Source: Bacillota bacterium (GTDB lineage: Bacteria; Bacillota; Bacilli; Alicyclobacillales; SLC66). Taken from it: a DNA stretch of 64,000 nucleotides. The position numbers and the translations under genes were made by a program. The stretch covers positions 1 through 64,000 of the forward strand of contig JAKADA010000006.1 of the NCBI GenBank assembly GCA_021820975.1, read 5' to 3'. Below are positions 31,055 to 32,962 of the stretch, in pieces. How positions within the stretch are numbered: position 1 is the stretch's first letter; the number at the start of each line of letters is the position of its first letter. Below the pieces are notes generated by a model. That model was not told the DNA's origin. It saw nothing but the letters and a program-made list of their open reading frames with translations, and did not search any database.

Positions 31055-31609
31055 ATGAAGGAAATGATCACGGTTGCGGATAAGAAACGATTTATTCACT
31101 GGTTTTTAGAACACTTCAACCTGAAAAACCCCGAAGCTGAATGGCTTTTGCAATATGTGGCGTCCAATGAAAGCCTACTTGAAAAAACACATTTTACCGA
31201 TCGTCTTGAACGTTCACCCAAAGCTCTCTTTATGTCTACGACTTGTGTGAATATGACGGCCTTTAAGTTTTATAAGAATCGTCGCGTCACATCAGACGTG
31301 GAAAAAGCTTTTCTCGATTTGCACAATCATCCTAATGAAGAATTGTATATCACACTTTACTTTCGCGATCGTGCACACTGCGTAGAATATGCTGCTGTCT
31401 TGGAGAGTCAAGAGGCTGAATTAAAAGTGCAGTCGAAACGCGACATTATGATAGGGCTTGAAGCAGAGATGTGGCTAGATCATGTACAATTTGATCATCA
31501 GTGCACATTTTTACGACAGCGTATCGACGAAGCTCTTGACCGTAAAGACCGTAACGCATTTACATTACTATCTTGTCAGTATAAGGCTTTGCTTAAAACG
31601 CGTCAGTAG
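31055..31609 (+). CDS. reoY: ReoY / YpiB family regulator of MurA degradation
   Basis: Matches YpiB of B. subtilis (UPF0302; ReoY in Listeria), which together with ReoM controls ClpCP-dependent breakdown of MurA and so the entry step of peptidoglycan synthesis. Seen are the family segments FIHWFLEHFNLKNPEAEWLLQ..., ERSPKALFMST, and the C-terminal UPF0302-type region QFDHQCTFLRQRIDEALDRKD, in 184 residues. The start is ATG 31055 after GGGGAGA. The position upstream of ypiF-qcr agrees with bacilli. Apparent length and motifs are normal. Confidence 0.88.
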   Translation: MKEMITVADKKRFIHWFLEHFNLKNPEAEWLLQYVASNESLLEKTHFTDRLERSPKALFMSTTCVNMTAFKFYKNRRVTSDVEKAFLDLHNHPNEELYITLYFRDRAHCVEYAAVLESQEAELKVQSKRDIMIGLEAEMWLDHVQFDHQCTFLRQRIDEALDRKDRNAFTLLSCQYKALLKTRQ

Positions 31610-31645
31610 GCTACAATAAGATCGTACCATTCAAATAAAGCATAG

Positions 31646-31763
31646 GCCTAGTTCCAAAGTTTTTGGAAGCGGGGGAACCGTGTTGTAGGGGTGTATCCGG
31701 TATTCTCCGGTAGGGAATCTCTTTTCCCAAACCCGTCAGCTAACCTCGTCGGCAAAAAGAGAG
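31646..31763 (+). ncRNA. c-di-AMP riboswitch (ydaO-yuaA type)
   Basis: The conserved core of the ydaO-yuaA leader is present in order: GCGGGGGAACC (31669-31679), GGGGTGTATCCGG, TAGGG, then CCCAAACCCGTCAGC and TAACCTCGT (31726-31749). P1 can form from GCC 31646-31648 with GGC 31751-31753. These RNAs bind cyclic di-AMP and usually switch genes for K+ transport, osmoprotection or wall turnover off. No terminator lies between aptamer and the next start codon, 16 bases on. Loop bases TCTCTTTT (31718-31725) are complementary to AAAAGAGA (31755-31762), which includes the start of the ribosome site. Confidence 0.93.
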
Positions 31764-31769
31764 GTGTTT

Positions 31770-32234
31770 ATGGTGGATTTAGTTATGGATGATTTTCGTA
31801 TTGGCCAACTCGAACCAAGTAGGATTGGACCCGTACTCAGTCAAGAAGTGGCGTCAACGGTCACGTACCTAGAGGAACCATCTGAGCGTATCTTACAAGT
31901 TGAGGAAACGGCATATAATGCCATGATGGTGATACTTAGATCGAATCAACCATTTCATGCTTGGACGATAGCACAAGCTACTCGAGGCATTTTGCATGGG
32001 TTTGTGCAGGTAGGATACGATATCTCACATGTTGCTCCATTTGTTGCAGCTGCTATTTCAAAAGCGATAAGCTCTGCCTATTCTTTGTCTTTGCAGGCAG
32101 AAAAAGGAATCCGTGCTGGCGTTCAGATGACGATGCGTGATTTAGGGTTGACACATGGGGAAAATGATCGAGTACATCATGTGCCTACAATAGACCAGGA
32201 TGAGACCATATTCTTTGTACAATCAGCTCTTTAA
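31770..32234 (+). CDS. Unknown protein under c-di-AMP riboswitch control
   Basis: I do not recognise this 154-residue protein. It has no signal peptide or membrane span. Residues about 40-125 look largely helical (ILQVEETAYNAMMVIL, ISHVAPFVAAAISKAI, LSLQAEKGIRAGVQM), with an acidic variable tail. ATG 31770 follows AGAGAGG by five bases; GTG 31764 lies within the ribosome site. It is monocistronic: the riboswitch precedes it and a strong terminator follows. The regulation predicts a role in turgor, K+ or envelope homeostasis, and the neighbour reoY is a wall-synthesis regulator; both points are inference. Confidence 0.85.
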   Translation: MVDLVMDDFRIGQLEPSRIGPVLSQEVASTVTYLEEPSERILQVEETAYNAMMVILRSNQPFHAWTIAQATRGILHGFVQVGYDISHVAPFVAAAISKAISSAYSLSLQAEKGIRAGVQMTMRDLGLTHGENDRVHHVPTIDQDETIFFVQSAL

Positions 32235-32253
32235 TCACTTGTGTACTTACTAA

Positions 32254-32296
32254 ACAGGCAATTCCTGTCCTCGCGGGCAGGGATTGCCTGTTTTTG
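32254..32296 (+). terminator. Intrinsic terminator after the riboswitch-controlled gene
   Basis: ACAGGCAAT (32254-32262) pairs with ATTGCCTGT (32283-32291), extended inward by five more pairs (32263-32267 with 32278-32282), followed by a T-tract. Confidence 0.92.
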
Positions 32297-32338
32297 GTGG
32301 ATCGTGCGATACTATGTGGCAGAAAGGATGCGATAGCT

Positions 32339-32962
32339 TTGCGTGTAGAAGAAATGAACGCTCAAGAATTACGCGAGACCACAGCTTATCACGATACAAT
32401 TTTATTTACTTTTTGTGGTTTGACACAACGGCCAAGTCACTTACCTATCGGTTCATCATGGTTTATTATACGTAAAATTCGGGATACGCTTGAACAACGA
32501 TTAGGGGGGCGTGTATTAACCATTCCTGTTCAAGGCGTAGACCTCGCGGGTGATGATAATGCATTTTTTTCCTTACCCCAAGAACAATTCTGCGCACTCT
32601 TGCAAGAATCAATACGTGCTTTTTTACGCTATTTGCCAATTAACTATGTAGTGCTTTTAAGTGATAGCTTACATAAAGAACAAGCTTTCTTTGAAGCATT
32701 TTCAAATACTTCTATGAAGACTACTTCTTTTGTATGGTGGCGAGATGGTTTGGATATTGAGACTGATGCATACGTACCGTCTGGTGAGCATGATACATCC
32801 CTCATGTTAACTATTGCTAAAGGACTAGTTGATGTCGATCAAAAATCTGCTGACCGCCTGAAAGCGAACCGTGCCACAGCGCAAGCAGGTGAAAAGTACT
32901 TGCAACAGGTGTCCAATCGCTTACAAATGGCCGTTGAGACGCTTTGGAACCAAAAATATTAA
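32339..32962 (+). CDS. ypiF: YpiF-like protein (DUF2487)
   Basis: Matches the YpiF family by position (reoY - ypiF - qcr in bacilli) and by the N-terminal pattern YHDTILFTFCGLT. No function is known. TTG 32339 (MRVEEMNAQ, 207 aa) is proposed because AGAAAGGA lies ten bases upstream and a longer version would run into the preceding terminator. The C-terminus (ADRLKANRATAQAGEKYLQQVSNRL) looks helical. No signal peptide or membrane span is seen. Confidence 0.75.
   Translation: MRVEEMNAQELRETTAYHDTILFTFCGLTQRPSHLPIGSSWFIIRKIRDTLEQRLGGRVLTIPVQGVDLAGDDNAFFSLPQEQFCALLQESIRAFLRYLPINYVVLLSDSLHKEQAFFEAFSNTSMKTTSFVWWRDGLDIETDAYVPSGEHDTSLMLTIAKGLVDVDQKSADRLKANRATAQAGEKYLQQVSNRLQMAVETLWNQKY

Follow-up and report, generated by a model that had tools for sequence, protein, structure and literature searches.

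A c-di-AMP riboswitch aptamer abutting the gene of a lineage-restricted helical protein family in the Alicyclobacillales

Results

The window, the whole stretch of 64,000 nt that was analysed, holds a c-di-AMP riboswitch aptamer (RF00379, 31635-31768) and an ORF of 154 codons (31770-32234); all features of the window described here lie on the forward strand. Upstream is a gene at 31055-31609 with UPF0302 and IDEAL domains above the Pfam cut-off. It matched the NCBIfam ReoY model with an E-value of 1.4e-44 and 151.9 bits, below the cut-off of 182, and we call it reoY-like, in agreement with an earlier note on this DNA that placed the ORF next to reoY. Downstream, an intrinsic terminator (32252-32293) with 19-nt arms at 32252-32270 and 32275-32293, 89% complementary and followed by TTTTT, precedes a creatininase-like gene at 32294-32962 (PF02633, E 6.6e-07, 29.4 bits, below the cut-off of 31.3). 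The 154-codon gene had been described as monocistronic. The terminator that closes it is real, but the gap between the reoY-like gene and the aptamer is only 25 nt long and showed no consensus promoter. The transcript may therefore include reoY.

In eight of nine same-family contigs compared, a helicase-like gene and then reoY precede the gene, as in the window, and a creatininase-like gene is next downstream in six of the nine. This synteny supports orthology despite sequence divergence. Adjacency to reoY was absent in Ferroacidibacillus and in two more distant riboswitch-linked loci examined, and so says little about function.

The aptamer aligned to the RF00379 covariance model over its full length (positions 1-134 of 134) with a cmscan score of 95.9 bits (E 2.1e-21; curated cut-off 38 bits). 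The earlier note had seen a nearly complete core starting at 31646, a position inside this interval, and had held that a poor RF00379 score would speak against it; the score was far from poor. The element at 31635-31768 is thus predicted to sense c-di-AMP. In the RF00379 alignment, the structure line pairs the 5' strand of P1 (GGCC, 31645-31648) with 31751-31754, the outer pair being non-standard. One pseudoknot strand, TCTCTTTT at 31718-31725, lies within the loop preceding CCCAAACCCG and is a perfect 8-nt complement of the second, AAAAGAGA at 31755-31762, which overlaps the Shine-Dalgarno sequence. The ydaO pseudoknot is part of the crystallised aptamer (PMC5393176). Across 161 RF00379 leaders, loop-tail complementarity exceeded that of all 200 tail permutations (0/200 reached it); the same test was weak on the 22 leaders of the riboswitch-linked family itself, where 54 of 1000 permutations reached the observed value.

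A single nucleotide separates the end of the aptamer model from ATG 31770, and the window has no terminator in between, which sets the arrangement apart from a terminator-type switch. The presumed Shine-Dalgarno sequence, GAGAGG (31759-31764), lies 5 nt before this ATG; the pseudoknot strand covers its GAGA and leaves the final GG uncovered. Folding leaves the direction of the switch unsettled, because the ligand-free minimum-energy fold of the leader, calculated without pseudoknots, also pairs the Shine-Dalgarno sequence and the start codon. In that fold CCUC pairs with GAGG, as expected of an ON switch in which CCTC (31744-31747) would mask the Shine-Dalgarno sequence until c-di-AMP released it. 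We regard such a switch as very improbable: the pseudoknot of the bound state would cover the Shine-Dalgarno sequence, and characterised c-di-AMP riboswitches are OFF switches (PMC6488665, PMC9960051). The lack of a terminator in the window and the overlap of the Shine-Dalgarno sequence with a pseudoknot strand instead make translational OFF control the most likely mode.

Searches with the 154-aa protein returned nothing at E < 0.05 in Pfam or NCBIfam (best E 0.16 and 0.08, respectively) and no relative in a PDB sequence search. This agrees with the earlier statement that the protein matches no family; membership of a known K+ uptake, osmolyte or wall family, which that note had considered would count against a new factor, found no profile match in Pfam or NCBIfam. 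No long hydrophobic stretch was seen on inspection by eye, consistent with the membrane span and signal peptide having been reported absent. Two sets of weak matches were judged to be chance: one to TrpBP/MtrB at the C-terminal end (E 0.08-0.16), and one of 15-19 bits to proteins of about 870 aa, presumably AdhE-type dehydrogenases, confined to a short helical stretch that lies close to their N-terminus and ends in RGV. AlphaFold models were all-helical, with a mean pLDDT of 78 for the window protein and 85 for one relative. Foldseek comparison of the two models with the PDB gave no match at E < 0.001, the top hits being mostly designed helical repeats; structure prediction thus yielded an all-helical model with no natural counterpart in the PDB. 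Other possible in-frame starts of the ORF are GTG 31764 and ATG 31785.

A single-sequence search recovered 13 relatives in 17 other same-family genomes at 27-36% identity (E 3e-22 to 5e-16). Of all members, the window protein has diverged furthest, with 26-34% identity in the alignment of same-family copies. Its N-terminal region is shortened, a C-terminal RLEDDxALDLP motif is absent and its model is poor beyond residue 128, all of which would fit a decaying copy whose expression platform was destroyed by deletion and whose gene is drifting. We consider decay improbable, since the 154-aa frame is intact, R72, G73, H76, G77, G82 and D84 are invariant across all 14 aligned same-family copies, and the locus keeps an intact aptamer, good Shine-Dalgarno spacing and a terminator of its own.

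Elsewhere in the order a first profile found eight more copies, placing the family in 22 of 59 order genomes; G032, G038 and G040 (order), two G147 copies and one G216 copy came from a broader profile. Class and phylum samples (349 and 398 genomes) held hardly any copies, none convincing beyond those added. The family is therefore lineage-restricted, to the Alicyclobacillales and one genome from each of two further Bacilli families; named contigs with copies include those of Sulfoacidibacillus thermotolerans and Ferroacidibacillus organovorans.

RF00379 lies directly upstream of 24 of the 28 copies recovered. These comprise all 14 same-family copies including that of the window, seven from the rest of the order (G048, G056, G051, G035, G041, G032 and G038), both G147 copies and the G216 copy; the copies in G037, G054, G055 and G040 have no upstream RF00379. 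Because a genome carries only a handful of such aptamers, this pairing is far beyond chance, although its formal value takes no account of kinship. The link between aptamer and gene is old and has been conserved. Comparison of riboswitch-gene pairs thus strongly supports a dedicated c-di-AMP target, and with the same switch before 24 of 28 copies the protein is a strong candidate for a new component of the bacterial c-di-AMP response, which concerns potassium, turgor and the cell wall. As to regulation, there is good support for the earlier reading of a new factor under c-di-AMP control. The copies without a riboswitch in G055, G054 and G037 (L067, L069 and L070) are alike among themselves, and L069 sits between two genes resembling sigma-54-type regulators.

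The usual targets of c-di-AMP riboswitches are transporters and wall enzymes. The window genome encodes two diadenylate cyclase domains, and its other three RF00379 loci precede, as read from translations, a LysM-type wall protein, an osmolyte-type ABC ATPase and an NlpC/P60-type protein. Given these genes, the 154-aa protein probably belongs to an osmolyte and wall regulon and is made at low c-di-AMP. At two of the three loci (L046, L048) the start codon abuts the aptamer. Many aptamers of the order (L046, L048, L159-L171, L257-L316) abut start codons of genes with signal-peptide-like N-termini. An abutting ORF was counted in 77 of 193 leaders compared with 54 in a control window, a contrast blurred by control windows that frequently fall within those very genes.

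The 13 same-family orthologs have a different leader, with 98-127 nt between aptamer and gene. Two scans together found a terminator-like hairpin in all 13, each leader being called by one scan or both; one example is CCGTGAC...GTCACGG-TTTT. More distant relatives also carry a long leader, and by parsimony we read the window form as a deletion of the leader that the orthologs have kept. The window form may also be an assembly error.

An ATG lies within -4 to +10 nt of the aptamer end in 20 of 22 family leaders, against 27% of other leader windows. In leaders with both a terminator and this ATG, the ATG frame stopped within the 5' arm of the terminator in 22 of 35, compared with 3 and 9 of 35 for the other two frames, counts that include related, non-independent sequences and eight arms placed or adjusted manually once the data had been seen (L002, L003, L005, L006, L010, L023, L090 and L138). 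Counted by lineage, with labels that we assigned ourselves, the ATG frame had an in-arm stop in 13 of 16, compared with 1 and 5 (Fisher p 5e-5). Ten of the 13 same-family orthologs had such a stop, the exceptions being L002, L003 and L013. Sixty further leaders gave no replication, because nearly all abut a gene and have no terminator; the one usable for the frame test has an ATG that opens the gene itself.

These patterns are suggestive of a leader ORF gated by c-di-AMP in the same-family orthologs. The ORF would span about 10-15 codons and end inside the terminator; c-di-AMP would permit or forbid ribosome entry on the leader, and a ribosome reaching the stop codon would disrupt the terminator. 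Extended to the Alicyclobacillales, the pseudoknot strand would double as the Shine-Dalgarno sequence for either the gene or a leader ORF, forming a riboswitch-gated attenuator, and in the window the start would have been moved by leader deletion. We hold this broader scheme tentatively, at somewhat less than even odds.

RNA-only transcription control of the orthologs, as in ydaO/kimA, has a similar claim, again short of an even chance. The terminator 5' arm would pair with the aptamer core as an antiterminator, the start codon and its frame would be incidental, and the window copy would be unregulated or controlled by another route. Several ortholog leaders hold possible antiterminators complementary to the aptamer core, and many leaders contain exact complements between terminator region and aptamer core, for example CGCTTCCG/CGGAAGCG and CCCCCG/CGGGGG. 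A small, stable hairpin that could be kept as RNA encloses the start codon (mean z -1.40, 33 leaders), and the peptides encoded in the leaders show hardly any conservation (pN 0.12, pS 0.22); for these two reasons the RNA-only explanation keeps its place. Moreover, 29 of 64 terminator-bearing leaders have no ATG near the aptamer end. Incidental start codons would, however, leave the position of the ATG in the family leaders and the excess of in-arm stops in its frame unexplained, and the window leader has no terminator on which such control could act.

Pro-stop ends 23 of 50 leader ORFs, a figure confounded by C-rich terminator arms and kinship. L219 and L222 share a 32-codon leader ORF, MFQF...YLFxDDDFV (pN 0.07, pS 0.36). 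Of the leader ORFs compared, it gives the strongest sign of coding, and no other pair looks coding. Three Alicyclobacillus-like leaders (L201, L208 and L212) have a similar 28-codon ORF at +8, MLYTA...ADPPSNP-stop, with some synonymous change near its end.

Discussion

We propose that in the window the abutting aptamer exerts translational OFF control over the 154-aa helical protein, the leader having been lost by deletion, and put the probability of this reading at roughly 65%. High c-di-AMP would stabilise the aptamer, so that the 3' pseudoknot strand is paired, the Shine-Dalgarno sequence masked and translation blocked. When c-di-AMP falls, as it does under K+ limitation in Bacillus thuringiensis (PMC6488665), the Shine-Dalgarno sequence would be freed and the protein made. 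For the protein we favour, with low confidence, a function as a helical adaptor or regulator in the low-c-di-AMP response. General c-di-AMP biology suggests that it may take part in turgor or envelope balance.

The locus can be compared with three known systems. With terminator-type RF00379 riboswitches it shares the aptamer over its full length, and the orthologs share the leader with a terminator-like hairpin; the window differs in having no terminator, and the target is an uncharacterised protein rather than a transporter. The ydaO-type riboswitch of Corynebacterium glutamicum nlpC is closer to the window, as it too has no terminator and has been proposed to control translation through pairing of the ribosome-binding site (PMC9960051). 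Reporter measurements exist for that system, whose target is a wall peptidase, whereas the window case is drawn from sequence and its target is uncharacterised. For the orthologs, the B12 riboswitch before Mycobacterium tuberculosis ppe2 is a precedent for a riboswitch ahead of a short, translated upstream ORF (PMC11260477). That case involves another ligand and RNA and works by termination-reinitiation, whereas the ortholog frame ends in a terminator-like hairpin and its translation is presumed; a leader ORF is absent from the window. A search of a library of open-licence papers returned none that, by title and abstract, deals with a c-di-AMP riboswitch and a leader peptide.

New here is a lineage-restricted family with an all-helical model, 24 of whose 28 copies are riboswitch-linked. 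An uncharacterised family that stands behind a c-di-AMP switch in nearly every genome having it is a well-defined new regulon member, and one that can be tested directly. Comparison with the orthologs exposes a change of platform on one gene: a leader with a terminator on one side, a start codon that abuts the aptamer on the other. The testable idea that riboswitches gate leader ORFs also comes from this comparison. If this idea is true, the targets of a leader-ORF attenuator would include a new family of proteins of the c-di-AMP response.
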